NCBI GenBank assembly: GCA_023053545.1
Contig: JAKZAN010000006.1
Location: 11,105,412-11,169,411, forward strand
Direction: 5' to 3'
Length of the DNA: 64,000 nucleotides
Source of the DNA: Lepidurus packardi
Lineage: Eukaryota > Arthropoda > Branchiopoda > Notostraca > Triopsidae
In this document: positions 33,207-64,000 of the stretch, piece by piece
Position numbering within the stretch: position 1 is the first letter of the stretch
How the letters are laid out: each line of letters starts with the position of its first letter
Translations under genes and position numbers: made by a program
The notes under the pieces: generated by a model
Database searches by the model: none
The model's input: only the letters and a program-made list of their open reading frames with translations
Told to the model about the DNA's origin: nothing

Positions 33207-33236
33207 TCAGAAAGAGTGTAAATAGTAGATATTTAC

Positions 33237-33318
33237 CAGATGGGCCTTCTCCCGGCACAGCGAACAGGAGTACGGGAACTCCTCCAGAAGCTGTAATTTG
33301 GCATACTCCTCTTCGCTG
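33237..33318 (-). other. Possible minus-strand exon with CxxC pair
   Basis: On the minus strand the frame reads EEEYAKLQLLEEFPYSCSLC and then meets CTG/GTAAAT, a fair 5' splice site, at 33237/33236. It could be an exon of an unknown gene that ends where the viral-like sequence begins. Support is weak: one short frame and one splice motif. Confidence 0.25.
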
Positions 33319-34770
33319 ATGCCTAAGATTGCAAGTATAAGCAACCAGCTTACTGGTGTGAAGAAAGTAATACTCACCGGAGCCACACGAGATGTGTTGC
33401 CAAACGCCGCAGATGTCGTAATAGCCGGAGCCGCCATTTTAGCTTATCTTGGGGTGACGACAGCTGTCTCCATTGGATGCCACCAATTGGAGAGTCGAGA
33501 AATCATGTCCGCGGGGACGAACTCGTGGATAGACGTCGTCCTTGACAGGAAGACTTGCGTGACTCTCCAAGCCGAAGCAAGGCCAACCCTGGCTTTGACC
33601 CTAGAATCGGCCAAGTATACCGGCCTGACATTCGAACGGGAGTTCGCCTTGAGCTGCAAGGTAGAACAGAGCGAGTTCTCCGCAGCTTGCCCTGGCACGG
33701 GTGAGGCTTCCCTATCCCAGGAGCACGAAGCCGGATGGACCTGTAAGCGAGCTCTCACGGACAGGGGCTGGGGAAACGGCTGCGGGCTGTTTGCCAAGGG
33801 CTCTGTCGTTGGATGCGTAAAGGTACAACCTTACAATAAGAAGTTTGCCGTATATTCGGTGGACCAGGGGAAGACCCGGTACACGCTCAGGCTCAACGTC
33901 CACGGCGTCCTTGTAAGCAACCACTCTATCAAAAGGCTGGAAAAGACCATCTTAGCCGGAGGGAATGACACAGAAGCGACGGAGAAGGCCCGGAAACTGG
34001 CCTTCGACGAGATCTCCCACACGATCTCATTTGACGCTTCAAGCAGCGACGGAACTGTGAGCCTGGGAGAGTACGGCACCCTTGGATATAGCTGCAAAGC
34101 CTATTCCGGTAATGGGTTCGAGAACTCCTTCTTGGGGTTCTTCTTCGACTCAAGGGACCAGGAGAAGGAAGACTTCAACGTGTTCCTCGTTAACAAAAAC
34201 TGGATTCACGACCTGGCCGAACCATGGCGATACCGTAATGGCGAGTGGAGGAACCTAGAGAGGTTCATCGACTGGGGCGGGGCATCGGGGGTGACGATCC
34301 GTTATAGCGTTGCAGAAGAGCAAGGGGGGGGGCTTTCGAGAAGGCCCTTGAAGGCGTCGAGACGCTCCGAGGTTTCACCAACAACAGCGACCTCTCCTAC
34401 GTGCTGAGCGAGTCCGCCCATGTAACGTGCCGGCTTCAGCTTGAAAACCTCAAGATCAAAGGTATAACGCTGGGATTTTGCCAGGGGAAGAAATTCCGCT
34501 GGGTGAAGGAACCGAGCTGGACGCAACACGACACAGTCGTATTTTCCGTTAAGAATGAGGGAAAAGAAGAAAACTGCCGTGTGACGGTGAGAATCACTGA
34601 AGCCGGGGACAAGCAAAAACCTCGAGGAGTGGTCCTCACGTCGGATCTCGTCTACAGTGGTGATGACTTCGAAGTGGAGGTACGGGTGGACCCTGGAGAA
34701 GCTTCCATCCAGATCGAGAACCTGGTTTTCCCTTGGACTCAGCTACAAGATGGTTTTAGAAAGGCGTTTA
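33319..34770 (+). pseudogene. Endogenous flavivirus-like M/E glycoprotein sequence, array unit 1
   Basis: This resembles the end of the flavivirus membrane protein followed by the envelope glycoprotein, a class II fusion protein. A hydrophobic segment (about 33415-33474) leads to the E N-terminus near 33478. The fusion-loop signature DRGWGNGCG lies at 33760-33786, within a Cys-rich domain II. The frame is open from 33319 to a run of nine G at 34324-34332, where it breaks. Domain III-like sequence (FRWVKEPSW, then paired Cys) continues in another frame. Viral similarity fades at a stem-like WTQLQDGFRKAF near 34770, before any membrane anchor; capsid, most of prM and all nonstructural genes are absent. 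It is a partial endogenous viral element, inferred from motifs only; the closest viral lineage is unknown. Confidence 0.92.
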
Positions 34771-35045
34771 TCAAACAGAACCGAAAGTTACATCTTAAGG
34801 AGAGACTTCGCTCACGCTACCAGGGTTTGGACGAAACCTACAGGCGACGTAGTCGCTACACTATAAAATGTCAGGTCTCTTTATTAGACTCTAGTGCATT
34901 AAAATCATTAATTATCTATTATTTTCTAATTCTACCTATCTCTTGGCCTTACCCACCGTTTTCCTGGTGACCTGACCAGTTGCGTTTTATGAAGAAAGCT
35001 GTTTTGTTTTACGTCAAACCACTCTCAAGGGAAAAGAAAGTCGGG
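34771..35045 (+). other. Non-viral tail of the E-like frame and spacer
   Basis: The frame carrying domain III runs on to a stop at 34968-34970, first as a basic stretch, then as a hydrophobic segment (SLIIYYFLILPISW) close to its end. No similarity to viral or known host protein is recognised. The rest is upstream sequence of the next gene. Confidence 0.6.
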
Positions 35046-35105
35046 TATAAAATGTGTCCCTGGTTTGTGTTTCAGATAATTCCAACAGCAGCTACGCTAC
35101 GGACA
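35046..35105 (+). promoter_or_regulatory. Core promoter (TATA, Inr, DPE) of the Pro/Ala-rich gene, unit 1
   Basis: TATAAAA at 35046-35052, a TCAGAT initiator with A(+1) at 35074, and GGACA at +28 to +32 (35101-35105), fitting the arthropod DPE consensus RGWYV. Spacing from TATA to +1 is 28 bp. The same block recurs with TATA at 38704, 42425, 46146, 49867, 53588 and 60636; unit 7's copy falls in the gap. Confidence 0.7.
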
Positions 35106-35106
35106 A

Positions 35107-35180
35107 GTAAGTCAATATTGAATTTAATGTCAATTATTACATTTGCTTACTGATTTTGTTTTCACGTTTTCTATTCACAG
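35107..35180 (+). other. 5'-UTR intron of the Pro/Ala-rich gene, unit 1
   Basis: Donor ACAA/GTAAGT and acceptor TTCTATTCACAG/AG bound a 74-bp AT-rich intron. Exon 1 is about 33 nt, and the ATG lies 3 nt into exon 2. Equivalent introns follow each promoter copy, for example 38765-38838. Confidence 0.7.
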
Positions 35181-35183
35181 AGA

Positions 35184-36131
<948 letters not shown>

Positions 36132-36248
36132 TTTACCGCTGGAAAAGGTGGAAAGTTCTTTCCCTTAATTTAATGTACTGATGAAATGATGATATGTAAT
36201 GATGAAATATACAAATATTGTATTCTTTTTACATTACATCATATTATA

Positions 36249-36854
36249 TTATATTTTTTGAATATTTGTGTCATTTCTTTTCAGAAGACACCGCCATCTA
36301 CCCTTCAGTTTACCAAAGGACCGTTCAACTGTCATGCGATTACTGCTCAGTATATTATTAAAACGTTCATTCTGAGCAGTAATGGCATGGGCAGAGTAAG
36401 GCTTCATAAGCCAAGTAAGAAGGGGATACGCAGCGTCACCTATAAGGTAGAAAGGGATGTTGACGCCACTGATAAGCTTCGTGGTGTCAGGGAACAGCAT
36501 ATTCTGCTGGGCAAGCTGGTGCAGTTTGCTGTTAGCAAAAATTCTCGCATCGTGCACCGAACCAGGCCAGCCAACGTTTATGTTAATAAAACGCCCGGAA
36601 AAATCAACCACCGTCTGGAGTACAACCATGTAGTCCCCTTTACGAACACAGTAGTAGTCCGCACGGTACTTTTTCGGGCCGAAAATAGGGATGTGCGTGC
36701 CGTCTATAGCTCCAACACACTGTGGAAGTTTTTTTCGACGGAAGTTTGACTCCGTTTCTTCCAGGCGCTGACCTTTGGGAATAGTTATGATAGTGTCACC
36801 GAAGAGAATTACCAGGGCAGCGCAGGTCTCATGCAAAGACCGCCATGCTGTTGT
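36249..36854 (-). pseudogene. Harbinger nuclease catalytic core, array unit 1
   Basis: A 195-codon open frame with a little more homology upstream. It holds CVGAIDGTHI, WPGSVHDARIF, LIGDAAYP and VERSFGKLKGRWRCL, so all acidic catalytic residues are present. The N-terminal DNA-binding half and the C-terminal ACCILHN block are missing, cut at AT-rich sequence on one side and at the FLYWCH joint near 36854 on the other. It is closest to the Harbinger copy at 31065-31340. It lies antisense to its neighbours in the unit. Confidence 0.88.
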
Positions 36855-37259
36855 CCCATGGTGGAAAATACATTAAACACCGGGTACATACATCTGGTGC
36901 GATCGACTGGAAATGCTCCGTTTATGGAAAAAATTTCAAGTGCTATGGCGCGATCAAGCAAACCGGCTCACAGTTTACAGTTGTTCGCGAGCATCAATGC
37001 AATAGCCTTGTCCCAGGAAGGGACAAAGAAATTGTAATGAAGAAAGACATGAAGGATACAGCCGTTAGAAGTAATTTATTGTGTAAATTGTGATTAAATT
37101 ACTATTAATAGAAAATTCCAACAGACCAATTCCAATCCGCCCAAAATATCGTGGAGGATATTCTGATCAGCCGTCCAGCCCAGGAGACATTGCCAATGGC
37201 AATACCGAAATTTGCCTCCCTTGTTCGGCTAACCAACAGGGCTAGGGAACAGCAAAGAC
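36855..37259 (+). pseudogene. FLYWCH zinc finger and MULE-like N-terminal segment, array unit 1
   Basis: The first exon encodes a FLYWCH finger (GGKYIKHRVHTSG, WKCSVYGKNFKCYGAI, REHQC). A GT...AG intron of 41 bp at 37071-37111 joins it in frame to a helical segment (AQNIVEDILISRPAQ, LVRLTNRAREQQRP) of the kind that follows the finger in FLYWCH-MULE transposases. The reading ends at the unit boundary, where E-like sequence begins in a different frame. No MULE catalytic domain is present. Splicing is inferred from frame and splice motifs only. Confidence 0.65.
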
Positions 37260-38428
37260 CTAGAATCGGCCAAGTATACCGGCCTGACATTCGAACGGGA
37301 GTTCGCCTTGAGCTGCAAGGTAGAACAGAGCGAGTTCTCCGCAGCTTGCCCTGGCACGGGTGAGGCTTCCCTATCCCAGGAGCACGAAGCCGGATGGACC
37401 TGTAAGCGAGCTCTCACGGACAGGGGCTGGGGAAACGGCTGCGGGCTGTTTGCCAAGGGCTCTGTCGTTGGATGCGTAAAGGTACAACCTTACAATAAGA
37501 AGTTTGCCGTATATTCGGTGGACCAGGGGAAGACCCGGTACACGCTCAGGCTCAACGTCCACGGCGTCCTTGTAAGCAACCACTCTATCAAAAGGCTGGA
37601 AAAGACCATCTTAGCCGGAGGGAATGACACAGAAGCGACGGAGAAGGCCCGGAAACTGGCCTTCGACGAGATCTCCCACACGATCTCATTTGACGCTTCA
37701 AGCAGCGACGGAACTGTGAGCCTGGGAGAGTACGGCACCCTTGGATATAGCTGCAAAGCCTATTCCGGTAATGGGTTCGAGAACTCCTTCTTGGGGTTCT
37801 TCTTCGACTCAAGGGACCAGGAGAAGGAAGACTTCAACGTGTTCCTCGTTAACAAAAACTGGATTCACGACCTGGCCGAACCATGGCGATACCGTAATGG
37901 CGAGTGGAGGAACCTAGAGAGGTTCATCGACTGGGGCGGGGCATCGGGGGTGACGATCCGTTATAGCGTTGCAGAAGAGCAAGGGGGGGGCTTTCGAGAA
38001 GGCCCTTGAAGGCGTCGAGACGCTCCGAGGTTTCACCAACAACAGCGACCTCTCCTACGTGCTGAGCGAGTCCGCCCATGTAACGTGCCGGCTTCAGCTT
38101 GAAAACCTCAAGATCAAAGGTATAACGCTGGGATTTTGCCAGGGGAAGAAATTCCGCTGGGTGAAGGAACCGAGCTGGACGCAACACGACACAGTCGTAT
38201 TTTCCGTTAAGAATGAGGGAAAAGAAGAAAACTGCCGTGTGACGGTGAGAATCACTGAAGCCGGGGACAAGCAAAAACCTCGAGGAGTGGTCCTCACGTC
38301 GAATCTCGTCTACAGTGGTGATGACTTCGAAGTGGAGGTACGGGTGGACCCTGGAGAAGCTTCCATCCAGATCGAGAACCTGGTTTTCCCTTGGACTCAG
38401 CTACAAGATGGTTTTAGAAAGGCGTTTA
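37260..38428 (+). pseudogene. E-like segment, array unit 2 (5' truncated)
   Basis: Begins in mid domain II at the joint with the FLYWCH/MULE piece; hydrophobic leader and E N-terminus are absent. The fusion loop is at about 37419. The frame breaks at eight G (37983-37990). Confidence 0.9.
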
Positions 38429-38703
38429 TCAAACAGAACCGAAAGTTACATCTTAAGGAGAGACTTCGCTCACGCTACCAGGGTTTGGACGAAACCTACA
38501 GGCGACGTAGTCGCTACACTATAAAATGTCAGGTCTCTTTATTAGACTCTAGTGCATTAAAATCATTAATTATCTATTATTTTCTAATTCTACCTATCTC
38601 TTGGCCTTACCCACCGTTTTCCTGGTGACCTGACCAGTTGCGTTTTATGAAGAAAGCTGTTTTGTTTTACGTCAAACCACTCTCAAGGGAAAAGAAAGTC
38701 GGG

Positions 38704-38763
38704 TATAAAATGTGTCCCTGGTTTGTGTTTCAGATAATTCCAACAGCAGCTACGCTACGGACA
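38704..38763 (+). promoter_or_regulatory. Core promoter, unit 2
   Basis: Same TATA, Inr and DPE spacing as unit 1; +1 expected at 38732. Confidence 0.68.
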
Positions 38764-38841
38764 AGTAAGTCAATATTGAATTTAATGTCAATTATTACAT
38801 TTGCTTACTGATTTTGTTTTCACGTTTTCTATTCACAGAGA

Positions 38842-39852
<1,011 letters not shown>

Positions 39853-39969
39853 TTTACCGCTGGAAAAGGTGGAAAGTTCTTTCCCTTAATTTAATGTACT
39901 GATGAAATGATGATATGTAATGATGAAATATACAAATATTGTATTCTTTTTACATTACATCATATTATA

Positions 39970-40575
39970 TTATATTTTTTGAATATTTGTGTCATTTCTT
40001 TTCAGAAGACACCGCCATCTACCCTTCAGTTTACCAAAGGACCGTTCAACTGTCATGCGATTACTGCTCAGTATATTATTAAAACGTTCATTCTGAGCAG
40101 TAATGGCATGGGCAGAGTAAGGCTTCATAAGCCAAGTAAGAAGGGGATACGCAGCGTCACCTATAAGGTAGAAAGGGATGTTGACGCCACTGATAAGCTT
40201 CGTGGTGTCAGGGAACAGCATATTCTGCTGGGCAAGCTGGTGCAGTTTGCTGTTAGCAAAAATTCTCGCATCGTGCACCGAACCAGGCCAGCCAACGTTT
40301 ATGTTAATAAAACGCCCGGAAAAATCAACCACCGTCTGGAGTACAACCATGTAGTCCCCTTTACGAACACAGTAGTAGTCCGCACGGTACTTTTTCGGGC
40401 CGAAAATAGGGATGTGCGTGCCGTCTATAGCTCCAACACACTGTGGAAGTTTTTTTCGACGGAAGTTTGACTCCGTTTCTTCCAGGCGCTGACCTTTGGG
40501 AATAGTTATGATAGTGTCACCGAAGAGAATTACCAGGGCAGCGCAGGTCTCATGCAAAGACCGCCATGCTGTTGT
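39970..40575 (-). pseudogene. Harbinger nuclease core, unit 2
   Basis: Same 195-codon frame as in unit 1. Confidence 0.88.
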
Positions 40576-40980
40576 CCCATGGTGGAAAATACATTAAACA
40601 CCGGGTACATACATCTGGTGCGATCGACTGGAAATGCTCCGTTTATGGAAAAAATTTCAAGTGCTATGGCGCGATCAAGCAAACCGGCTCACAGTTTACA
40701 GTTGTTCGCGAGCATCAATGCAATAGCCTTGTCCCAGGAAGGGACAAAGAAATTGTAATGAAGAAAGACATGAAGGATACAGCCGTTAGAAGTAATTTAT
40801 TGTGTAAATTGTGATTAAATTACTATTAATAGAAAATTCCAACAGACCAATTCCAATCCGCCCAAAATATCGTGGAGGATATTCTGATCAGCCGTCCAGC
40901 CCAGGAGACATTGCCAATGGCAATACCGAAATTTGCCTCCCTTGTTCGGCTAACCAACAGGGCTAGGGAACAGCAAAGAC
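40576..40980 (+). pseudogene. FLYWCH/MULE-like segment, unit 2
   Basis: Same two exons and 41-bp intron as unit 1 (intron at 40792-40832). Confidence 0.65.
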
Positions 40981-42149
40981 CTAGAATCGGCCAAGTATAC
41001 CGGCCTGACATTCGAACGGGAGTTCGCCTTGAGCTGCAAGGTAGAACAGAGCGAGTTCTCCGCAGCTTGCCCTGGCACGGGTGAGGCTTCCCTATCCCAG
41101 GAGCACGAAGCCGGATGGACCTGTAAGCGAGCTCTCACGGACAGGGGCTGGGGAAACGGCTGCGGGCTGTTTGCCAAGGGCTCTGTCGTTGGATGCGTAA
41201 AGGTACAACCTTACAATAAGAAGTTTGCCGTATATTCGGTGGACCAGGGGAAGACCCGGTACACGCTCAGGCTCAACGTCCACGGCGTCCTTGTAAGCAA
41301 CCACTCTATCAAAAGGCTGGAAAAGACCATCTTAGCCGGAGGGAATGACACAGAAGCGACGGAGAAGGCCCGGAAACTGGCCTTCGACGAGATCTCCCAC
41401 ACGATCTCATTTGACGCTTCAAGCAGCGACGGAACTGTGAGCCTGGGAGAGTACGGCACCCTTGGATATAGCTGCAAAGCCTATTCCGGTAATGGGTTCG
41501 AGAACTCCTTCTTGGGGTTCTTCTTCGACTCAAGGGACCAGGAGAAGGAAGACTTCAACGTGTTCCTCGTTAACAAAAACTGGATTCACGACCTGGCCGA
41601 ACCATGGCGATACCGTAATGGCGAGTGGAGGAACCTAGAGAGGTTCATCGACTGGGGCGGGGCATCGGGGGTGACGATCCGTTATAGCGTTGCAGAAGAG
41701 CAAGGGGGGGGCTTTCGAGAAGGCCCTTGAAGGCGTCGAGACGCTCCGAGGTTTCACCAACAACAGCGACCTCTCCTACGTGCTGAGCGAGTCCGCCCAT
41801 GTAACGTGCCGGCTTCAGCTTGAAAACCTCAAGATCAAAGGTATAACGCTGGGATTTTGCCAGGGGAAGAAATTCCGCTGGGTGAAGGAACCGAGCTGGA
41901 CGCAACACGACACAGTCGTATTTTCCGTTAAGAATGAGGGAAAAGAAGAAAACTGCCGTGTGACGGTGAGAATCACTGAAGCCGGGGACAAGCAAAAACC
42001 TCGAGGAGTGGTCCTCACGTCGAATCTCGTCTACAGTGGTGATGACTTCGAAGTGGAGGTACGGGTGGACCCTGGAGAAGCTTCCATCCAGATCGAGAAC
42101 CTGGTTTTCCCTTGGACTCAGCTACAAGATGGTTTTAGAAAGGCGTTTA
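40981..42149 (+). pseudogene. E-like segment, unit 3
   Basis: As unit 2; eight-G frame break at about 41704. Confidence 0.9.
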
Positions 42150-42424
42150 TCAAACAGAACCGAAAGTTACATCTTAAGGAGAGACTTCGCTCACGCTACC
42201 AGGGTTTGGACGAAACCTACAGGCGACGTAGTCGCTACACTATAAAATGTCAGGTCTCTTTATTAGACTCTAGTGCATTAAAATCATTAATTATCTATTA
42301 TTTTCTAATTCTACCTATCTCTTGGCCTTACCCACCGTTTTCCTGGTGACCTGACCAGTTGCGTTTTATGAAGAAAGCTGTTTTGTTTTACGTCAAACCA
42401 CTCTCAAGGGAAAAGAAAGTCGGG

Positions 42425-42484
42425 TATAAAATGTGTCCCTGGTTTGTGTTTCAGATAATTCCAACAGCAGCTACGCTACGGACA
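42425..42484 (+). promoter_or_regulatory. Core promoter, unit 3
   Basis: TATAAAA at 42425; same arrangement as unit 1. Confidence 0.68.
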
Positions 42485-42562
42485 AGTAAGTCAATATTGA
42501 ATTTAATGTCAATTATTACATTTGCTTACTGATTTTGTTTTCACGTTTTCTATTCACAGAGA

Positions 42563-43573
<1,011 letters not shown>

Positions 43574-43690
43574 TTTACCGCTGGAAAAGGTGGAAAGTTC
43601 TTTCCCTTAATTTAATGTACTGATGAAATGATGATATGTAATGATGAAATATACAAATATTGTATTCTTTTTACATTACATCATATTATA

Positions 43691-44296
43691 TTATATTTTT
43701 TGAATATTTGTGTCATTTCTTTTCAGAAGACACCGCCATCTACCCTTCAGTTTACCAAAGGACCGTTCAACTGTCATGCGATTACTGCTCAGTATATTAT
43801 TAAAACGTTCATTCTGAGCAGTAATGGCATGGGCAGAGTAAGGCTTCATAAGCCAAGTAAGAAGGGGATACGCAGCGTCACCTATAAGGTAGAAAGGGAT
43901 GTTGACGCCACTGATAAGCTTCGTGGTGTCAGGGAACAGCATATTCTGCTGGGCAAGCTGGTGCAGTTTGCTGTTAGCAAAAATTCTCGCATCGTGCACC
44001 GAACCAGGCCAGCCAACGTTTATGTTAATAAAACGCCCGGAAAAATCAACCACCGTCTGGAGTACAACCATGTAGTCCCCTTTACGAACACAGTAGTAGT
44101 CCGCACGGTACTTTTTCGGGCCGAAAATAGGGATGTGCGTGCCGTCTATAGCTCCAACACACTGTGGAAGTTTTTTTCGACGGAAGTTTGACTCCGTTTC
44201 TTCCAGGCGCTGACCTTTGGGAATAGTTATGATAGTGTCACCGAAGAGAATTACCAGGGCAGCGCAGGTCTCATGCAAAGACCGCCATGCTGTTGT
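43691..44296 (-). pseudogene. Harbinger nuclease core, unit 3
   Basis: Same frame as unit 1. Confidence 0.88.
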
Positions 44297-44701
44297 CCCA
44301 TGGTGGAAAATACATTAAACACCGGGTACATACATCTGGTGCGATCGACTGGAAATGCTCCGTTTATGGAAAAAATTTCAAGTGCTATGGCGCGATCAAG
44401 CAAACCGGCTCACAGTTTACAGTTGTTCGCGAGCATCAATGCAATAGCCTTGTCCCAGGAAGGGACAAAGAAATTGTAATGAAGAAAGACATGAAGGATA
44501 CAGCCGTTAGAAGTAATTTATTGTGTAAATTGTGATTAAATTACTATTAATAGAAAATTCCAACAGACCAATTCCAATCCGCCCAAAATATCGTGGAGGA
44601 TATTCTGATCAGCCGTCCAGCCCAGGAGACATTGCCAATGGCAATACCGAAATTTGCCTCCCTTGTTCGGCTAACCAACAGGGCTAGGGAACAGCAAAGA
44701 C
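44297..44701 (+). pseudogene. FLYWCH/MULE-like segment, unit 3
   Basis: Same as unit 1. Confidence 0.65.
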
Positions 44702-45870
44702 CTAGAATCGGCCAAGTATACCGGCCTGACATTCGAACGGGAGTTCGCCTTGAGCTGCAAGGTAGAACAGAGCGAGTTCTCCGCAGCTTGCCCTGGCACG
44801 GGTGAGGCTTCCCTATCCCAGGAGCACGAAGCCGGATGGACCTGTAAGCGAGCTCTCACGGACAGGGGCTGGGGAAACGGCTGCGGGCTGTTTGCCAAGG
44901 GCTCTGTCGTTGGATGCGTAAAGGTACAACCTTACAATAAGAAGTTTGCCGTATATTCGGTGGACCAGGGGAAGACCCGGTACACGCTCAGGCTCAACGT
45001 CCACGGCGTCCTTGTAAGCAACCACTCTATCAAAAGGCTGGAAAAGACCATCTTAGCCGGAGGGAATGACACAGAAGCGACGGAGAAGGCCCGGAAACTG
45101 GCCTTCGACGAGATCTCCCACACGATCTCATTTGACGCTTCAAGCAGCGACGGAACTGTGAGCCTGGGAGAGTACGGCACCCTTGGATATAGCTGCAAAG
45201 CCTATTCCGGTAATGGGTTCGAGAACTCCTTCTTGGGGTTCTTCTTCGACTCAAGGGACCAGGAGAAGGAAGACTTCAACGTGTTCCTCGTTAACAAAAA
45301 CTGGATTCACGACCTGGCCGAACCATGGCGATACCGTAATGGCGAGTGGAGGAACCTAGAGAGGTTCATCGACTGGGGCGGGGCATCGGGGGTGACGATC
45401 CGTTATAGCGTTGCAGAAGAGCAAGGGGGGGGCTTTCGAGAAGGCCCTTGAAGGCGTCGAGACGCTCCGAGGTTTCACCAACAACAGCGACCTCTCCTAC
45501 GTGCTGAGCGAGTCCGCCCATGTAACGTGCCGGCTTCAGCTTGAAAACCTCAAGATCAAAGGTATAACGCTGGGATTTTGCCAGGGGAAGAAATTCCGCT
45601 GGGTGAAGGAACCGAGCTGGACGCAACACGACACAGTCGTATTTTCCGTTAAGAATGAGGGAAAAGAAGAAAACTGCCGTGTGACGGTGAGAATCACTGA
45701 AGCCGGGGACAAGCAAAAACCTCGAGGAGTGGTCCTCACGTCGAATCTCGTCTACAGTGGTGATGACTTCGAAGTGGAGGTACGGGTGGACCCTGGAGAA
45801 GCTTCCATCCAGATCGAGAACCTGGTTTTCCCTTGGACTCAGCTACAAGATGGTTTTAGAAAGGCGTTTA
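44702..45870 (+). pseudogene. E-like segment, unit 4
   Basis: As unit 2; eight-G frame break at about 45425. Confidence 0.9.
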
Positions 45871-46145
45871 TCAAACAGAACCGAAAGTTACATCTTAAGG
45901 AGAGACTTCGCTCACGCTACCAGGGTTTGGACGAAACCTACAGGCGACGTAGTCGCTACACTATAAAATGTCAGGTCTCTTTATTAGACTCTAGTGCATT
46001 AAAATCATTAATTATCTATTATTTTCTAATTCTACCTATCTCTTGGCCTTACCCACCGTTTTCCTGGTGACCTGACCAGTTGCGTTTTATGAAGAAAGCT
46101 GTTTTGTTTTACGTCAAACCACTCTCAAGGGAAAAGAAAGTCGGG

Positions 46146-46205
46146 TATAAAATGTGTCCCTGGTTTGTGTTTCAGATAATTCCAACAGCAGCTACGCTAC
46201 GGACA
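46146..46205 (+). promoter_or_regulatory. Core promoter, unit 4
   Basis: TATAAAA at 46146; same arrangement as unit 1. Confidence 0.68.
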
Positions 46206-46283
46206 AGTAAGTCAATATTGAATTTAATGTCAATTATTACATTTGCTTACTGATTTTGTTTTCACGTTTTCTATTCACAGAGA

Positions 46284-47294
<1,011 letters not shown>

Positions 47295-47411
47295 TTTACC
47301 GCTGGAAAAGGTGGAAAGTTCTTTCCCTTAATTTAATGTACTGATGAAATGATGATATGTAATGATGAAATATACAAATATTGTATTCTTTTTACATTAC
47401 ATCATATTATA

Positions 47412-49591: not shown

Positions 49592-49866
49592 TCAAACAGA
49601 ACCGAAAGTTACATCTTAAGGAGAGACTTCGCTCACGCTACCAGGGTTTGGACGAAACCTACAGGCGACGTAGTCGCTACACTATAAAATGTCAGGTCTC
49701 TTTATTAGACTCTAGTGCATTAAAATCATTAATTATCTATTATTTTCTAATTCTACCTATCTCTTGGCCTTACCCACCGTTTTCCTGGTGACCTGACCAG
49801 TTGCGTTTTATGAAGAAAGCTGTTTTGTTTTACGTCAAACCACTCTCAAGGGAAAAGAAAGTCGGG

Positions 49867-49926
49867 TATAAAATGTGTCCCTGGTTTGTGTTTCAGATAA
49901 TTCCAACAGCAGCTACGCTACGGACA
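49867..49926 (+). promoter_or_regulatory. Core promoter, unit 5
   Basis: TATAAAA at 49867; same arrangement as unit 1. Confidence 0.68.
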
Positions 49927-50004
49927 AGTAAGTCAATATTGAATTTAATGTCAATTATTACATTTGCTTACTGATTTTGTTTTCACGTTTTCTATTCACA
50001 GAGA

Positions 50005-51015
<1,011 letters not shown>

Positions 51016-51132
51016 TTTACCGCTGGAAAAGGTGGAAAGTTCTTTCCCTTAATTTAATGTACTGATGAAATGATGATATGTAATGATGAAATATACAAAT
51101 ATTGTATTCTTTTTACATTACATCATATTATA

Positions 51133-51738
51133 TTATATTTTTTGAATATTTGTGTCATTTCTTTTCAGAAGACACCGCCATCTACCCTTCAGTTTACCAA
51201 AGGACCGTTCAACTGTCATGCGATTACTGCTCAGTATATTATTAAAACGTTCATTCTGAGCAGTAATGGCATGGGCAGAGTAAGGCTTCATAAGCCAAGT
51301 AAGAAGGGGATACGCAGCGTCACCTATAAGGTAGAAAGGGATGTTGACGCCACTGATAAGCTTCGTGGTGTCAGGGAACAGCATATTCTGCTGGGCAAGC
51401 TGGTGCAGTTTGCTGTTAGCAAAAATTCTCGCATCGTGCACCGAACCAGGCCAGCCAACGTTTATGTTAATAAAACGCCCGGAAAAATCAACCACCGTCT
51501 GGAGTACAACCATGTAGTCCCCTTTACGAACACAGTAGTAGTCCGCACGGTACTTTTTCGGGCCGAAAATAGGGATGTGCGTGCCGTCTATAGCTCCAAC
51601 ACACTGTGGAAGTTTTTTTCGACGGAAGTTTGACTCCGTTTCTTCCAGGCGCTGACCTTTGGGAATAGTTATGATAGTGTCACCGAAGAGAATTACCAGG
51701 GCAGCGCAGGTCTCATGCAAAGACCGCCATGCTGTTGT
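51133..51738 (-). pseudogene. Harbinger nuclease core, unit 5
   Basis: Same frame as unit 1. Confidence 0.88.
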
Positions 51739-52143
51739 CCCATGGTGGAAAATACATTAAACACCGGGTACATACATCTGGTGCGATCGACTGGAAATGC
51801 TCCGTTTATGGAAAAAATTTCAAGTGCTATGGCGCGATCAAGCAAACCGGCTCACAGTTTACAGTTGTTCGCGAGCATCAATGCAATAGCCTTGTCCCAG
51901 GAAGGGACAAAGAAATTGTAATGAAGAAAGACATGAAGGATACAGCCGTTAGAAGTAATTTATTGTGTAAATTGTGATTAAATTACTATTAATAGAAAAT
52001 TCCAACAGACCAATTCCAATCCGCCCAAAATATCGTGGAGGATATTCTGATCAGCCGTCCAGCCCAGGAGACATTGCCAATGGCAATACCGAAATTTGCC
52101 TCCCTTGTTCGGCTAACCAACAGGGCTAGGGAACAGCAAAGAC
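51739..52143 (+). pseudogene. FLYWCH/MULE-like segment, unit 5
   Basis: Same as unit 1. Confidence 0.65.
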
Positions 52144-53312
52144 CTAGAATCGGCCAAGTATACCGGCCTGACATTCGAACGGGAGTTCGCCTTGAGCTGC
52201 AAGGTAGAACAGAGCGAGTTCTCCGCAGCTTGCCCTGGCACGGGTGAGGCTTCCCTATCCCAGGAGCACGAAGCCGGATGGACCTGTAAGCGAGCTCTCA
52301 CGGACAGGGGCTGGGGAAACGGCTGCGGGCTGTTTGCCAAGGGCTCTGTCGTTGGATGCGTAAAGGTACAACCTTACAATAAGAAGTTTGCCGTATATTC
52401 GGTGGACCAGGGGAAGACCCGGTACACGCTCAGGCTCAACGTCCACGGCGTCCTTGTAAGCAACCACTCTATCAAAAGGCTGGAAAAGACCATCTTAGCC
52501 GGAGGGAATGACACAGAAGCGACGGAGAAGGCCCGGAAACTGGCCTTCGACGAGATCTCCCACACGATCTCATTTGACGCTTCAAGCAGCGACGGAACTG
52601 TGAGCCTGGGAGAGTACGGCACCCTTGGATATAGCTGCAAAGCCTATTCCGGTAATGGGTTCGAGAACTCCTTCTTGGGGTTCTTCTTCGACTCAAGGGA
52701 CCAGGAGAAGGAAGACTTCAACGTGTTCCTCGTTAACAAAAACTGGATTCACGACCTGGCCGAACCATGGCGATACCGTAATGGCGAGTGGAGGAACCTA
52801 GAGAGGTTCATCGACTGGGGCGGGGCATCGGGGGTGACGATCCGTTATAGCGTTGCAGAAGAGCAAGGGGGGGGCTTTCGAGAAGGCCCTTGAAGGCGTC
52901 GAGACGCTCCGAGGTTTCACCAACAACAGCGACCTCTCCTACGTGCTGAGCGAGTCCGCCCATGTAACGTGCCGGCTTCAGCTTGAAAACCTCAAGATCA
53001 AAGGTATAACGCTGGGATTTTGCCAGGGGAAGAAATTCCGCTGGGTGAAGGAACCGAGCTGGACGCAACACGACACAGTCGTATTTTCCGTTAAGAATGA
53101 GGGAAAAGAAGAAAACTGCCGTGTGACGGTGAGAATCACTGAAGCCGGGGACAAGCAAAAACCTCGAGGAGTGGTCCTCACGTCGAATCTCGTCTACAGT
53201 GGTGATGACTTCGAAGTGGAGGTACGGGTGGACCCTGGAGAAGCTTCCATCCAGATCGAGAACCTGGTTTTCCCTTGGACTCAGCTACAAGATGGTTTTA
53301 GAAAGGCGTTTA
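52144..53312 (+). pseudogene. E-like segment, unit 6
   Basis: As unit 2; eight-G frame break at about 52867. Confidence 0.9.
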
Positions 53313-53587
53313 TCAAACAGAACCGAAAGTTACATCTTAAGGAGAGACTTCGCTCACGCTACCAGGGTTTGGACGAAACCTACAGGCGACGTAGTCGCTA
53401 CACTATAAAATGTCAGGTCTCTTTATTAGACTCTAGTGCATTAAAATCATTAATTATCTATTATTTTCTAATTCTACCTATCTCTTGGCCTTACCCACCG
53501 TTTTCCTGGTGACCTGACCAGTTGCGTTTTATGAAGAAAGCTGTTTTGTTTTACGTCAAACCACTCTCAAGGGAAAAGAAAGTCGGG

Positions 53588-53647
53588 TATAAAATGTGTC
53601 CCTGGTTTGTGTTTCAGATAATTCCAACAGCAGCTACGCTACGGACA
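53588..53647 (+). promoter_or_regulatory. Core promoter, unit 6
   Basis: TATAAAA at 53588; same arrangement as unit 1. Confidence 0.68.
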
Positions 53648-53725
53648 AGTAAGTCAATATTGAATTTAATGTCAATTATTACATTTGCTTACTGATTTTG
53701 TTTTCACGTTTTCTATTCACAGAGA

Positions 53726-54736
<1,011 letters not shown>

Positions 54737-54853
54737 TTTACCGCTGGAAAAGGTGGAAAGTTCTTTCCCTTAATTTAATGTACTGATGAAATGATGATAT
54801 GTAATGATGAAATATACAAATATTGTATTCTTTTTACATTACATCATATTATA

Positions 54854-55459
54854 TTATATTTTTTGAATATTTGTGTCATTTCTTTTCAGAAGACACCGCC
54901 ATCTACCCTTCAGTTTACCAAAGGACCGTTCAACTGTCATGCGATTACTGCTCAGTATATTATTAAAACGTTCATTCTGAGCAGTAATGGCATGGGCAGA
55001 GTAAGGCTTCATAAGCCAAGTAAGAAGGGGATACGCAGCGTCACCTATAAGGTAGAAAGGGATGTTGACGCCACTGATAAGCTTCGTGGTGTCAGGGAAC
55101 AGCATATTCTGCTGGGCAAGCTGGTGCAGTTTGCTGTTAGCAAAAATTCTCGCATCGTGCACCGAACCAGGCCAGCCAACGTTTATGTTAATAAAACGCC
55201 CGGAAAAATCAACCACCGTCTGGAGTACAACCATGTAGTCCCCTTTACGAACACAGTAGTAGTCCGCACGGTACTTTTTCGGGCCGAAAATAGGGATGTG
55301 CGTGCCGTCTATAGCTCCAACACACTGTGGAAGTTTTTTTCGACGGAAGTTTGACTCCGTTTCTTCCAGGCGCTGACCTTTGGGAATAGTTATGATAGTG
55401 TCACCGAAGAGAATTACCAGGGCAGCGCAGGTCTCATGCAAAGACCGCCATGCTGTTGT
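54854..55459 (-). pseudogene. Harbinger nuclease core, unit 6
   Basis: Same frame as unit 1. Confidence 0.88.
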
Positions 55460-55864
55460 CCCATGGTGGAAAATACATTAAACACCGGGTACATACATCT
55501 GGTGCGATCGACTGGAAATGCTCCGTTTATGGAAAAAATTTCAAGTGCTATGGCGCGATCAAGCAAACCGGCTCACAGTTTACAGTTGTTCGCGAGCATC
55601 AATGCAATAGCCTTGTCCCAGGAAGGGACAAAGAAATTGTAATGAAGAAAGACATGAAGGATACAGCCGTTAGAAGTAATTTATTGTGTAAATTGTGATT
55701 AAATTACTATTAATAGAAAATTCCAACAGACCAATTCCAATCCGCCCAAAATATCGTGGAGGATATTCTGATCAGCCGTCCAGCCCAGGAGACATTGCCA
55801 ATGGCAATACCGAAATTTGCCTCCCTTGTTCGGCTAACCAACAGGGCTAGGGAACAGCAAAGAC
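55460..55864 (+). pseudogene. FLYWCH/MULE-like segment, unit 6
   Basis: Same as unit 1. Confidence 0.65.
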
Positions 55865-57033
55865 CTAGAATCGGCCAAGTATACCGGCCTGACATTCGAA
55901 CGGGAGTTCGCCTTGAGCTGCAAGGTAGAACAGAGCGAGTTCTCCGCAGCTTGCCCTGGCACGGGTGAGGCTTCCCTATCCCAGGAGCACGAAGCCGGAT
56001 GGACCTGTAAGCGAGCTCTCACGGACAGGGGCTGGGGAAACGGCTGCGGGCTGTTTGCCAAGGGCTCTGTCGTTGGATGCGTAAAGGTACAACCTTACAA
56101 TAAGAAGTTTGCCGTATATTCGGTGGACCAGGGGAAGACCCGGTACACGCTCAGGCTCAACGTCCACGGCGTCCTTGTAAGCAACCACTCTATCAAAAGG
56201 CTGGAAAAGACCATCTTAGCCGGAGGGAATGACACAGAAGCGACGGAGAAGGCCCGGAAACTGGCCTTCGACGAGATCTCCCACACGATCTCATTTGACG
56301 CTTCAAGCAGCGACGGAACTGTGAGCCTGGGAGAGTACGGCACCCTTGGATATAGCTGCAAAGCCTATTCCGGTAATGGGTTCGAGAACTCCTTCTTGGG
56401 GTTCTTCTTCGACTCAAGGGACCAGGAGAAGGAAGACTTCAACGTGTTCCTCGTTAACAAAAACTGGATTCACGACCTGGCCGAACCATGGCGATACCGT
56501 AATGGCGAGTGGAGGAACCTAGAGAGGTTCATCGACTGGGGCGGGGCATCGGGGGTGACGATCCGTTATAGCGTTGCAGAAGAGCAAGGGGGGGGCTTTC
56601 GAGAAGGCCCTTGAAGGCGTCGAGACGCTCCGAGGTTTCACCAACAACAGCGACCTCTCCTACGTGCTGAGCGAGTCCGCCCATGTAACGTGCCGGCTTC
56701 AGCTTGAAAACCTCAAGATCAAAGGTATAACGCTGGGATTTTGCCAGGGGAAGAAATTCCGCTGGGTGAAGGAACCGAGCTGGACGCAACACGACACAGT
56801 CGTATTTTCCGTTAAGAATGAGGGAAAAGAAGAAAACTGCCGTGTGACGGTGAGAATCACTGAAGCCGGGGACAAGCAAAAACCTCGAGGAGTGGTCCTC
56901 ACGTCGAATCTCGTCTACAGTGGTGATGACTTCGAAGTGGAGGTACGGGTGGACCCTGGAGAAGCTTCCATCCAGATCGAGAACCTGGTTTTCCCTTGGA
57001 CTCAGCTACAAGATGGTTTTAGAAAGGCGTTTA
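55865..57033 (+). pseudogene. E-like segment, unit 7
   Basis: As unit 2; eight-G frame break at about 56588. Last clean stretch before the gap. Confidence 0.9.
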
Positions 57034-57249
57034 TCAAACAGAACCGAAAGTTACATCTTAAGGAGAGACTTCGCTCACGCTACCAGGGTTTGGACGAAAC
57101 CTACAGGCGACGTAGTCGCTACACTATAAAATGTCAGGTCTCTTTATTAGACTCTAGTGCATTAAAATCATTAATTATCTATTATTTTCTAATTCTACCT
57201 ATCTCTTGGCCTTACCCACCGTTTTCCTGGTGACCTGACCAGTTGCGTT

Positions 57250-57349
57250 NNNNNNNNNNNNNNNNNNNNNNNNNNNNNNNNNNNNNNNNNNNNNNNNNNN
57301 NNNNNNNNNNNNNNNNNNNNNNNNNNNNNNNNNNNNNNNNNNNNNNNNN
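57250..57349. other. Assembly gap (100 N) in unit 7
   Basis: Comparison with unit 6 shows that about 520 bp should lie here, covering the core promoter, the intron and the start of the Pro/Ala-rich gene. Confidence 0.97.
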
Positions 57350-58042
57350 TCCTGCTGGCCCGGCTCCACTCCAGCTGCCCCGGTTCCACAAATCGTACAT
57401 TATTGCAAGTACCCCCCCGTACCCGGACTTGCTCCAGCTGCCCCGGCTCCACCTCCAGCCTGACCCGGCTCCACAAATCAAATATTATTGCAAGTACCCC
57501 CGTACCTGGACTTGCTTGCAAGTACCCCCGTACCCGGACTTGCTCCAGCTGCCCCGGCTCCACTTCCAGCTGCCCCGGCTCCACTTCCAGCTGCCCCGGC
57601 TCCACTTCCAGCTGCCCCGGCTCCACCTCCAGCTGCCCCGGCTCCACCTCCAGCTGCCATACAACAAAGAAATCTCGCAAGAAAAATTCGCTATCGGGAG
57701 AACCAGCGCAAGAGGACATGAAGAAAATAACAGGATAGCGTATTTATATCGCAATAATTTACTTCACATCAACTATCCACCACCAAATGTGCCTGTCCGG
57801 CCCTCCTGCTGCCCCGACTTCGTATGCTGCTCGGGGCTTCGTATGCTGCCCGGACTTCGTCTGCTGCCCCAGCTTCGTCTGCTGCCCCAGCTTCGTCTGC
57901 TGCCCCAGTTTCGCCTGCTGCCCCAACTTCACCTGCTGCCCCAACTTCGCCTGCTGCCCCAACTTCGCCTGCTGCCCAGGCTACGTCTGCTCATGAGGTT
58001 CCTCCCGCGGATCATGAGATTCCTCCCGCAGGGAATCCATGA
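57350..58042 (+). pseudogene. Pro/Ala-rich gene, unit 7, partial and frameshifted
   Basis: The 5' half is in the gap. Extra C, G or A bases (for example near 57412, 57459, 57499, 57714 and 57803) break the frame. These single-base insertions look like sequencing errors more than mutations. Confidence 0.7.
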
Positions 58043-58154
58043 TTTACCGCTGGAAAAGGTGGAAAGTTCTTTCCCTTAATTTAATGTACTGATGAAATGA
58101 TGATATGTAATGATGAAATATACAAATATTGTATTCTTTTTACATTACATCATA

Positions 58155-58769
58155 TTATATTATATTTTTTTGAATATTTGTGTCATTTCTTTTCAGAAGA
58201 CACCGCCATCTACCCTTCAGTTTACCAAAGGACCGTTCAACTGTCATGCGATTACTGCTCAGTATATTATTAAAACGTTCATTCTGAGCAGTAATGGCAT
58301 GGGCAGAGTAAGGCTTCATAAGCCAAGTAAGAAGGGGATACGCAGCGTCACCTATAAGGTAGAAAGGGATGTTGACGCCACTGATAAGCTTCGTGGTGTC
58401 AGGGAACAGCATATTCTGCTGGGCAAGCTGGTGCAGTTTGCTGTTAGCAAAAATTCTCGGCATCGTGCACCGAACCAGGCCAGGCCAACGTTTATGTTAA
58501 TAAAACGCCCGGAAAAATCAACCACCGTCTGGAGTACAACCATGTAGTCCCCTTTACGAACACAGTAGTAGTCCGCACGGTACTTTTTCGGGCCGAAAAT
58601 AGGGATGTGCGTGCCGTCTATAGCTCCAACACACTGTGGAAGTTTTTTTCGACGGAAGTTTGACTCCGTTTCTTCCAGGCGCTGACCTTTGGGAATAGTT
58701 ATGATAGTGTCACCGAAGAGAATTACCAGGGGCAGCGCAGGTCTCATGCAAAGACCGCCATGCTGTTGT
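58155..58769 (-). pseudogene. Harbinger nuclease core, unit 7, frameshifted
   Basis: Same segment with single-base insertions (around 58460, 58483 and 58731) that split the frame. Confidence 0.8.
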
Positions 58770-59179
58770 CCCATGGTGGAAAATACATTAAACACCGGGT
58801 ACATACATCTGGTGCGATCGACTGGAAATGCTCCGTTTATGGAAAAAATTTCAAGTGCTATGGCGCGATCAAGCAAACCGGCTCACAGTTTACAGTTGTT
58901 CGCGAGCATCAATGCAATAGCCTTGTCCCAGAAGGGACAAAGAAATTGTAATGAAGGAAAGACATGAAGGATACAGCCGTTAGAAGTAATTTATTGTGTA
59001 AATTGTGATTAAATTACTATTAATAGAAAATTCCAACAGACCAATTCCAATCCGCCCAAAATATCGTGGAGGATATTCTGATCAGCCCGTCCAGCCCAGC
59101 CAGGAGACATTGCCAATGGCAATACCGAAATTTGCCTCCCTTGTTCGGCTAACCAACAGGGCTAGGGAACAGCAAAGAC
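58770..59179 (+). pseudogene. FLYWCH/MULE-like segment, unit 7
   Basis: As unit 1 with small indels near 58932, 58957 and 59087-59101. Confidence 0.6.
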
Positions 59180-60357
59180 CTACGAATCGGCCAAGTATAC
59201 CGGCCTGACATTCGAACGGGAGTTCGCCTTGAGCTGCAAGGTAGAACAGAGCGAGTTCTCCGCAGCTTGCCCTGGCACGGGTGAGGCTTCCCTATCCAGG
59301 AGCACGAAGCCGGATGGACCTGTAAGCGAGCTCTCACGGACAGGGGCTGGGGAAACGGCTGCGGGCTGTTTGCCAAGGGCTCTGTCGTTGGATGCGTAAA
59401 GGTACAACCTTACAATAAGAAGTTTGCCGTATATTCGGTGGACCAGGGGAAGACCCGGTACACGCTTCAGGCTCAACGTCCACGGCGTCCTTGTAAGCAA
59501 CCCACTCTATCAAAAGGCTGGAAAAGACCATCTTAGCCGGAGGGAATGACACAGAAGCGACGGAGAAGGCCCGGAAACTGGCCTTCGACGAGATCTCCCA
59601 CACGATCTCATTTGACGCTTCAAGCAGCGACGGAACTGTGAGCCTGGGAGAGTACGGCACCCTTGGATATAGCTGCAAAGCCTATTCCGGTAATGGGTTC
59701 GAGGAAACTCCTTCTTGGGGTTCTTCTTCGACTCAAGGGACCAGGAGAAGGAAGACTTCAACGTGTTCCTCGTTAACAAAAACTGGATTCACGACCTGGC
59801 CGAACCATGGCGATACCGTAATGGCGAGTGGAGGAACCTAGAGAGGTTCATCGACTGGGGCGGGGGCATCGGGGGTGACGATCCGTTATAGCGTTGCAGA
59901 AGAGCAAGGGGGGGGGGCTTTCGAGAAGGCCCTTGAAGGCGTCGAGACGCTCCGAGGTTTCACCAACAACAGCGACCTCTCCTACGTGCTGAGCGAGGTC
60001 CGCCCATGTAACGTGTCGGCTTCAGCTTGAAAACCTCAAGATCAAAGGTATAACGCTGGGATTTTGCCCAGGGGAGAAATTCCGCTGGGTGAAGGAACCG
60101 AGCTGGACGCAACACGACACAGTCGTATTTTCCGTTAAGAATGAGGGAAAAGAAGAAAACTGCCGTGTGACGGTGAGAATCACTGAAGCCGGGGACAAGC
60201 AAAAACCTCGAGGAGTGGTCCTCACGTCGAATCTCGTCTACAGTGGTGATGACTTCGAAGTGGAGGTACGGGTGGACCCTGGAGAAGCTTTCCATCCAGA
60301 TCGAGAACCTGGTTTTCCCTTGGACTCAGCTACAAGATGGTTTTAGAAAGGCGTTTA
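59180..60357 (+). pseudogene. E-like segment, unit 8, many small indels
   Basis: The G run here is ten bases (59908-59917). Additional single-base indels throughout break every long frame; compare the clean units 2-6. Confidence 0.85.
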
Positions 60358-60635
60358 TCAAACAGAACCGAAAGTTACATCTTAAGGAGAGACTTCGCTC
60401 ACGCTACCAGGGTTTGGACGAAAACCTACAGGCGACGTAGTTCGCTACACTATAAAATGTCAGGTCTCTTTATTAGACTCTAGTGCATTAAAATCATTAA
60501 TTATCTATTATTTTCTAATTCTACCTATCTCTTGGCCTTACCCCACCGTTTTCCTGGTGACCTGACCAGTTGCGTTTTATGAAGAAAGCTGTTTTGTTTT
60601 ACGTCAAACCACTCTCAAGGGAAAAGAAAGTCGGG

Positions 60636-60695
60636 TATAAAATGTGTCCCTGGTTTGTGTTTCAGATAATTCCAACAGCAGCTACGCTACGGACA
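60636..60695 (+). promoter_or_regulatory. Core promoter, unit 8
   Basis: TATA, Inr (A at 60664) and GGACA at 60691 are intact. Confidence 0.65.
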
Positions 60696-60773
60696 AGTAA
60701 GTCAATATTGAATTTAATGTCAATTATTACATTGGCTTACTGATTTTGTTTTCACGTTTTCTATTCACAGAGA

Positions 60774-61796
<1,023 letters not shown>

Positions 61797-61913
61797 TTTA
61801 CCGCTGGAATAGGTGGAAAGTTCTTTCCCTTAATTTAATGTACTGATGAAATGATGATATGTAATGATGAAATATACAAATATTGTATTCTTTTTACATT
61901 ACATCATATTATA

Positions 61914-62520
61914 TTATATTTTTTGAATATTTGTGTCATTTCTTTTCAGAAGACACCGCCATCTACCCTTCAGTTTACCAAAGGACCGTTCAACTGTCAT
62001 GCGATTACTGCTCAGTATATTATTAAAACGTTCATTCTGAGCAGTAATGGCATGGGCAGAGTAAGGCTTCATAAGCCAAGTAAGAAGGGGATACGCAGCG
62101 TCACCTATAAGGTAGAAAGGGATGTTGACGCCACTGATAAGCTTCGTGGTGTCAGGGAACAGCATATTCTGCTGGGCAAGCTGGTGCAGTTTGCTGTTAG
62201 CAAAAAATTCTCGCATCGTGCACCGAACCAGGCCAGCCAACGTTTATGTTAATAAAACGCCCGGAAAAATCAACCACCGTCTGGAGTACAACCATGTAGT
62301 CCCCTTTACGAACACAGTAGTAGTCCGCACGGTACTTTTTCGGGCCGAAAATAGGGATGTGCGTGCCGTCTATAGCTCCAACACACTGTGGAAGTTTTTT
62401 TCGACGGAAGTTTGACTCCGTTTCTTCCAGGCGCTGACCTTTGGGAATAGTTATGATAGTGTCACCGAAGAGAATTACCAGGGCAGCGCAGGTCTCATGC
62501 AAAGACCGTCCATGCTGTTG
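61914..62520 (-). pseudogene. Harbinger nuclease core, unit 8, frameshifted
   Basis: An extra A near 62206 splits the frame; the rest matches unit 1. Confidence 0.8.
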
Positions 62521-62928
62521 TCCCATGGTGGAAAATACATTAAACACCGGGTACATACATCTGGTGCGATCGACTGGAAATGCTCCGTTTATGGAAAAAA
62601 TTTCAAGTGCTATGGCGCGATCAAGCAAAACCGGCTCACAGTTTACAGTTGTTCGCGAGCATCAATGCAATAGCCTTGTCCCAGGAAGGGACAAAGAAAT
62701 TGTAATGAAGAAAGACATGAAGGATACAGCCGTTAGAAAGTAATTTATTGTGTAAATTGTGATTAAATTACTATTAATAGAAAATTCCAACAGACCAATT
62801 CCAATCCGCCCAAAATATCGTGGAGGATATTCTGATCAGCCGTCCAGCCCAGGAGACATTGCCAATGGCAATACCGAAATTTGCCTCCCTTGTCCGGCTA
62901 ACCAACAGGGCTAGGGAACAGCAAAGAC
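62521..62928 (+). pseudogene. FLYWCH/MULE-like segment, unit 8
   Basis: As unit 1 with a few single-base insertions. Confidence 0.6.
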
Positions 62929-64000
62929 CTAGAATCGGCCAAGTATACCGGCCTGACATTCGAACGGGAGTTCGCCTTGAGCTGCAAAGGGTAGAAACAG
63001 AGCGAGTTCTCCGCAGCTTGCCCTGGCACGGGTGAGGCTTCCCTATCCCAGGAGCACGAAGCCGGATGGACCTGTAAGCGAGCTCTCACGGACAGGGGCT
63101 GGGGAAACGGCTGCGGGCTGTTTGCCAAGGGCTCTGTCGTTGGATGCGTAAAGGTACAACCTTACAATAAGAAGTTTGCCGTATATTCGGTGGACCAGGG
63201 GGAAGACCCGGTACACGCTCAGGCTCAACGTCCACGGCGTCCTTGTAAGCAACCACTCTATCAAAAGGCTGGAAAAGACCATCTTAGCCGGAGGGAATGA
63301 CACAGAAGCGACGGAGAAGGCCCGGAAACTGGCCTTCGACGAGATCTCCCACACGATCTCATTTGACGCTTCAAGCAGCGACGGAACTGTGAGCCTGGGA
63401 GAGTACGGCACCCTTGGATATAGCTGCAAAGCCTATTCCGGTAATGGGTTCGAGAACTCCTTCTTGGGGTTCTTCTTCGACTCAAGGGACCAGGAGAAGG
63501 AAGACTTCAACGTGTTCCTCGTTAACAAAAACTGGATTCACGACCTGGCCGAACCATGGCGATACCGTAATGGCGAGTGGAGGAACCTAGAGAGGTTCAT
63601 CGACTGGGGCGGGGCATCGGGGGTGACGATCCGTTATAGCGTTGCAGAAGAGCAAGGGGGGGGGCTTTCGAGAAGGCCCTTGAAGGCGTCGAGACGCTCC
63701 GAGGTTTCACCAACAACAGCGACCTCTCCTACGTGCTGAGCGAGTCCGCCCATGTAACGTGCCGGCTTCAGCTTGAAAACCTCAAGATCAAAGGTATAAC
63801 GCTGGGATTTTGCCAGGGGAAGAAATTCCGCTGGGTGAAGGAACCGAGCTGGACGCAACACGACACAGTCGTATTTTCCGTTAAGAATGAGGGAAAAGAA
63901 GAAAACTGCCGTGTGACGGTGAGAATCACTGAAGCCGGGGACAAGCAAAAACCTCGAGGAGTGGTCCTCACGTCGAATCTCGTCTACAGTGGTGATGACT
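62929..64000 (+). pseudogene. E-like segment, unit 9, cut by window edge
   Basis: Same truncated start as units 2-8. The G run is nine bases, as in unit 1, but the downstream base that marks unit 1 (LTSD versus LTSN) is the common form. Confidence 0.88.

Follow-up and report, generated by a model that had tools for sequence, protein, structure and literature searches.

Introduction

Composite satellites whose monomers derive from transposon graveyards have been discussed in a review (PMC12628747). Among viruses, plant endogenous caulimovirids are found in tandem arrays, and their integration as filler DNA at breaks has been discussed (PMC10377300). For arthropods, retrotransposon-dependent capture was proposed for the endogenous flaviviral elements of Aedes (PMC5512259), an antiviral small-RNA role has been described for an endogenous non-retroviral element in Aedes aegypti (PMC7522710), and a survey of endogenous viral elements (EVEs) in crustaceans covers, in the excerpts available, five viral groups without flaviviruses (PMC4573495). 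An endogenous flavivirus element of Craspedacusta is cited in PMC9854234. All of these papers are cited here from excerpts of their text. In this study we analyzed a tandem array in Lepidurus packardi (Notostraca), in which every repeat unit carries part of a flavivirus envelope (E) gene. The window, that is, the whole stretch of 64,000 nucleotides analyzed, corresponds to C5:11105412-11169411 of an assembly of 108.6 Mb in 344 contigs; C1-C6, C21 and similar names denote assembly contigs, and L-numbers denote stretches read from the assembly. The array is probably a young composite satellite that arose from a chimeric insertion, which was tandemly duplicated and then expanded.

A composite tandem array

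An earlier note on this DNA, made from its sequence alone, had described nine units of a 3,721-bp tandem repeat. The repeat is present in the assembly, head-to-tail with a spacing of 3,721 bp from position 33601. Nine units start inside the window, as claimed, but the array has ten and reaches beyond it, with unit 10 ending at C5:11175769.

33601..37259, plus strand: unit 1, 3,659 bp
37260..40980, plus strand: unit 2, 3,721 bp
40981..44701, plus strand: unit 3, same letters as unit 2
44702..48422, plus strand: unit 4, same letters as unit 2
48423..52143, plus strand: unit 5, same letters as unit 2
52144..55864, plus strand: unit 6, same letters as unit 2
55865..59183, plus strand: unit 7, interrupted by a scaffold gap
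59184..62928, plus strand: unit 8, 3,745 bp, the most divergent, with 14 substitutions relative to unit 2
62929..64000, plus strand: unit 9, continuing beyond the window and followed by unit 10, to C5:11175769

The ten units measure 3,659, 3,721 (five units), 3,319 (with a 100-N gap), 3,745, 3,727 and 3,703 bp. Units 2-6 agree in every letter, in line with the earlier description, and pairwise comparison of all ten units revealed 0-23 substitutions, with unit 8 furthest from the rest. The array has two of the properties of a composite satellite or macrosatellite: ten head-to-tail units of high identity, and a monomer assembled from unrelated pieces (virus, gag, a proline/alanine-rich segment and a Harbinger flank). 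The order within the unit is a flavivirus fragment, a 106-bp piece of retrotransposon gag, a proline/alanine-rich (P/A-rich) gene segment and 1 kb of target-site flank, located as follows in and just ahead of unit 1.

33421..34743, plus strand: flavivirus-derived fragment, E domains I-III (PF00869, 2.7e-41; PF02832, 1.4e-08)
34734..34839, plus strand: retrotransposon gag piece, 106 bp, 98-99% identical to L042, L043 and L044
34834..36230, plus strand: P/A-rich gene segment, with related copies on C1, C3 and C4
36260..37259, minus strand: Harbinger-type DDE nuclease remnant and the sequence after it (PF13359, 1.1e-29, 104 bits)

The earlier inventory of the unit was right about E, the P/A-rich gene and a Harbinger-type nuclease, and had overlooked the 106-bp gag piece. 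Its FLYWCH/MULE exons have to be dropped, as no Pfam match at E<=10, with HMMER filters on, was obtained in 36794-37090 or 37112-37360. The proposed co-amplification of virus, gene and transposon pieces as a single unit was borne out, and the units are near-identical.

Two scaffold gaps bear on how the array was assembled.

31354..31453: scaffold gap, 100 N, separating the left flank from the array contig
57250..57349: scaffold gap, 100 N, within unit 7

The gap in unit 7 and the presence of five units with the same letters on one 25.8-kb contig are what would be expected if the assembler or scaffolder had multiplied one or a few real units. Part of the differences in units 8-9 are also clustered, and clustered differences can come from polishing errors. 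Such an artefact is nonetheless highly unlikely, given that unit lengths and sequences vary, that the far contig alone carries units 8, 9 and 10 and enters the flank without N, and that a second viral array in the genome (see below) lacks an N gap, although it is partly out of register. Because the 100-N gap cuts unit 7, the copy number of ten is the figure of the assembly.

The flavivirus envelope fragment

Each unit contains about 1,143 bp of a flavivirus envelope gene, with protein homology above the curated cut-offs. Flavi_glycoprot (PF00869) scored 142 bits in unit 1 (frame from 33229, left flank included) and 112 bits in unit 2, and Flavi_glycop_C (PF02832) scored 35 bits in unit 1 and 38 bits in unit 2, with a cut-off of 27 for both families. 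In unit 2, both open pieces matched solved flavivirus E proteins, at 6.9e-31 and 7.8e-16. These matches agree with the viral E segment reported earlier. The short stretch ahead of E, which we take to be the end of M, had no Pfam match. Host DNA lies on both sides of the fragment, as expected of an EVE: the left flank occurs elsewhere without virus, and gag, the gene segment and the transposon follow on the right.

Position 33601 is a correct start for the repeated part, but the virus piece itself begins at about 33421. In fact, the nucleotide match to other viral loci of the genome spans 33424-34743, and viral sequence ahead of 33601 occurs once, at unit 1 only.

The E frame is broken into at least two frames in all ten units, which argues against domestication; with no intact frame, a domesticated envelope gene is rejected. 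There is little sign of a host benefit from the virus piece, which is most likely a passenger. A protein search for relatives of the virus returned 569 candidates, none at E<=0.001, and a scan of viral contigs for such relatives gave one pattern match and no relative.

The insertion site and its array-free sister

An array-free sister locus is located 0.37 Mb away at C5:11508001-11515000 (L036, L041), where the left flank, the Harbinger remnant and the right flank are found with no N runs. Comparison of unit 1 (36260..37259) with the sister (L036:1711-2673) disclosed 9 mismatches over 962 paired bases and 38 gap positions. To the right of the array, the DNA matches the sister at 99.5%, then at 99.6% and 97.0%. 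On the left, three stretches have counterparts.

24800..28100, plus strand: left part of the locus, 98% over its full 3,301 bp to the sister (C5:11503239-11506546)
29561..31268, plus strand: left flank of the insertion site, 98.4% to the sister (L036:1-1711)
31454..33420, plus strand: array-side left flank, 100% over 82 bp and 99.6% over 1,885 bp to C5:11545419-11547385

The sister stretch is free of virus and therefore shows the site without the insertion. Because it has both flanks and the Harbinger remnant without virus or gene, the transposon part of the unit represents the target site. The Harbinger nuclease core of the earlier note is thus real (DDE_Tnp_4, minus strand, 104 bits), but it belongs to the target-site flank rather than being a separate joining partner. 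A role for Harbinger as the carrier is disfavoured, the same part being held by the array-free sister. The element is also incomplete, with a frame of 207 codons in the unit compared with 414 codons at 23955-25199. The sister could be either a segmental duplicate or a second haplotype retained in the assembly.

In a search of the whole assembly with 32000-33600, in which the best 40 of 77 candidates were scored, the only other near-full copy found of 31454..33420 was C5:11545419-11547385, which continues into other DNA with no virus. Immediately left of the first gap, window 31268-31353 begins with 60 bp of sister sequence found again at 36260; the remaining 26 bp adjoin the gap and had no match among the stretches compared except short chance words.

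Junctions and proposed origin

Stretch L043, which resembles the gag piece, was identified as Retrotrans_gag (Pfam, 3.9e-11). The gag piece is in sense orientation, in frame with the downstream E frame, and overlaps the virus by 10 bp. At this meeting point 9 of 10 bases are common to both sequences, as judged with the relatives at 9.60, 9.69 and 10.40 Mb used in place of the parent virus. Random joins of the 9.69-Mb relative and gag reached 9/10 in 55 of 200,000 cases, by a criterion chosen after the join was seen. The gag piece and the P/A segment have about 2 bases in common at their join.

The repeat junction connects a point just past the Harbinger remnant to a point within the virus piece, with 2 bases in common, and therefore matches the expectation for an end-joined tandem duplication. 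The extra virus (33421-33600) appears only ahead of unit 1 and the right flank only behind unit 10, which argues that the tandem duplication took place within one insert.

The proposed origin of the array incorporates four steps. First, flaviviral RNA would have been copied to DNA, with the copy switching to a retrotransposon gag template at the 10-bp near-match. Second, the virus-gag chimera and a genomic P/A gene segment would have been inserted in the Harbinger remnant, within a transposon-rich stretch. Third, an end-joined tandem duplication, with its join inside the virus fragment, could have produced the repeat. Fourth, unequal exchange or gene conversion may have brought the array to about ten copies and kept those in the middle free of differences. 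Units 2-6 are identical, yet the flank in unit 1 is about 0.9% off the sister, which suggests that the expansion postdates the separation of the two loci.

Several observations weigh against this origin. Microhomology joining of DNA ends would give the same virus-gag junction. The array is split across two contigs, the left one being 25.8 kb between gaps, and the contig order to the left is doubtful. In the sister, the left-flank sequence is found some 36 kb rightward of the array site, and an account by one simple insertion may therefore be wrong. The match between array and sister was followed rightward at points only; the far one ends at C5:11212104, about 1.07 kb short of the expected left-flank sequence, and the stretch read extends 0.4 kb further. 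Either a misplaced contig (the one with units 1-7) or a position of the array at the junction of a duplication of about 37.7 kb may explain this. In addition, 60 bp of the sister (L036:1711-1770) occur to the left as well as to the right of the insert, differing at 2 positions, a feature that this origin does not account for. Finally, selection may have acted on the P/A gene, whose frame is open in 8 of 9 units.

The P/A-rich gene segment

The following sites were recognized in unit 1.

35043, plus strand: TATA-like site
35107, plus strand: donor GT
35181 onward, plus strand: exon after the acceptor
35184, plus strand: ATG of the P/A frame
36129-36131, plus strand: stop of the P/A frame

The Pro/Ala-rich gene predicted earlier is supported by its open frame, TATA-like site and GT/AG borders, which also appear in a copy on another chromosome: the relative on C1 retains the TATA-like site, the GT and AG borders and the ATG. 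Within the array, the TATA-like site, splice borders and ATG were present in 9/9 units where that part is assembled, and the frame spans 315-336 codons in 8 of these 9 units and 233 codons in unit 8.

This preservation is consistent with gene-dosage amplification, in which the P/A-rich gene would have been selected and the virus, gag and Harbinger pieces carried along by breakpoints around it. The occurrence of P/A-related sequence five times on C4 points in the same direction (C4:1557879-1597800, four of the pieces spaced 8.1-8.7 kb). However, the only C4 stretch read, L038, is a truncated 3' part without the array-type promoter, and open frames are likewise expected of a merely young array. 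Amplification for gene dosage is therefore an unlikely explanation compared with a young composite satellite.

Other flaviviral loci in the genome

Pfam searches of the assembly with four viral families located at least eight flaviviral loci, the 10.40- and 10.46-Mb loci being counted apart. Eight is a lower bound, because the searches covered only these four families.

C5: flaviviral loci at 9.60, 9.69, 10.40-10.44, 10.46, 11.14-11.17 and 11.32 Mb
C2: flaviviral locus at 1.34 Mb
C4: flaviviral locus at 2.51 Mb

Three of the eight are tandem, namely the array in the window, the 10.40-10.44-Mb array and the pair on C4. The second array (C5:10402844-10438522; L011-L014) repeats structural-gene sequence with a spacing of 5,338 bp and has no N gap; of its 34 steps of one kilobase, 20 agree with the following copy at >=99.6%, and the remainder are out of register or edges. 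It also harbors a 2.48-kb transposon-like insert with the ends CTGTGGAGAA and a 3-bp GAT duplication. The only NS1 match near this array is at its low end. The C4 pair (C4:2506810-2513499; L046) consists of two NS3-bearing copies spaced about 3,215 bp apart with 99.45% identity; a 255-bp direct repeat is found at the start and end of this region, and small inverted repeats outside. On C2 (C2:1339219-1343787; L019), a single open frame, 1,719 codons long, contains both NS3 and NS5 matches, and this flaviviral insertion looks recent. The 9.60- and 9.69-Mb loci (C5:9.59-9.70 Mb; L016, L017) have opposite orientation and show no difference in the 201 E codons compared.

The E copies of different loci were compared. 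Between the window and the 10.46-Mb copy, 184 of 245 nucleotide changes fall at third codon positions, and the changed codons are 165 synonymous and 46 non-synonymous; relative to the 9.60-Mb copy, third positions account for 100 of 124 changes. The E copies therefore diverged as coding sequence. Neutral decay in the host is disfavoured as the source of the divergence by this third-position and synonymous excess. The best explanation of the pattern appears to be separate insertions of related viruses that had diverged before insertion; selection within the host would look alike.

The tandem state of 3/8 loci, and the location of 6/8 within 9.6-11.32 Mb of a single chromosome, might also suggest, by analogy with the element of Aedes aegypti (PMC7522710), that the host retains repeated virus sequence as a source of antiviral small RNA. 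The array sequence itself argues otherwise: E has the same orientation as the P/A gene, and therefore read-through from that gene would be sense, not antisense. Moreover, P/A-related sequence is also repeated on C4, where the four viral Pfam searches had no match in C4:1557879-1597800. We regard a functional virus array as very unlikely. A broader version, in which the host repeatedly makes flavivirus insertions tandem, so that the arrays would be a heritable amplified antiviral memory with the composite unit as its newest member, is again highly improbable. The young composite satellite, with the virus as a passenger, is preferred over both.

Other sequence features

A very recent-looking BEL/Pao retrotransposon occupies window 17280-23754; its 390-bp terminal repeats are identical and its frame has 1,749 codons. 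COX1 sequences with TGA codons on C1, C2, C4, C5, C6, C21 and C38 are likely nuclear copies of mitochondrial DNA. One such nuclear copy, translated with TGA as tryptophan, agrees at 86-89% with the seven proteins bearing a taxon name among the 120 matches listed, all of them from arthropods. C43, C52 and C214 carry COX1 without stops; the C214 copy, the only one of these read, reads as bacterial.

Comparison with known systems

How a composite satellite develops from one chimeric insertion is usually difficult to observe after the copies decay. Here, an array-free sister exists alongside near-identical units, the junctions and a viral overhang in single copy, and the order of events is therefore readable and testable. 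The array indicates that an RNA-virus fragment can form the core of a satellite-like unit, and the other tandem loci that tandem growth of viral insertions occurred more than once in this genome.

The earlier note held that such co-amplification was not known to be described. The combination with an array-free sister was indeed not found among the matches listed, but the kind of structure is not new, since composite satellites (PMC12628747) and plant viral arrays (PMC10377300) are in print. No RNA-virus gene within a composite tandem unit was found among the matches listed, in which subscription literature is poorly covered.

Like the satellites of PMC12628747, as excerpted, the array has a monomer of successive unrelated mobile-element pieces in tandem. 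It differs in that its pieces are long and young, count an RNA-virus gene and a gene-like frame among them, and occur in about ten copies, and in that an array-free sister locus survives. With the Aedes elements, as described in the excerpts of PMC5512259, it shares flavivirus fragments in an arthropod germ line; neither 'tandem' nor 'duplicat' occurs in PMC5512259, whereas here a tandem unit has the E fragment as its core. The Craspedacusta element is similarly a flavivirus-derived germ-line insertion of an aquatic invertebrate, for which no tandem composite is described in the excerpts of PMC9854234. The head-to-tail arrangement of viral DNA recalls the endogenous caulimovirids, as far as PMC10377300 was available; those are plant elements of viruses with DNA genomes, in contrast to an RNA virus in an animal, joined in each unit to a host gene and a gag scrap. 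The parts and processes of the array are of known kinds, and their combination with a preserved array-free sister is a good test case.

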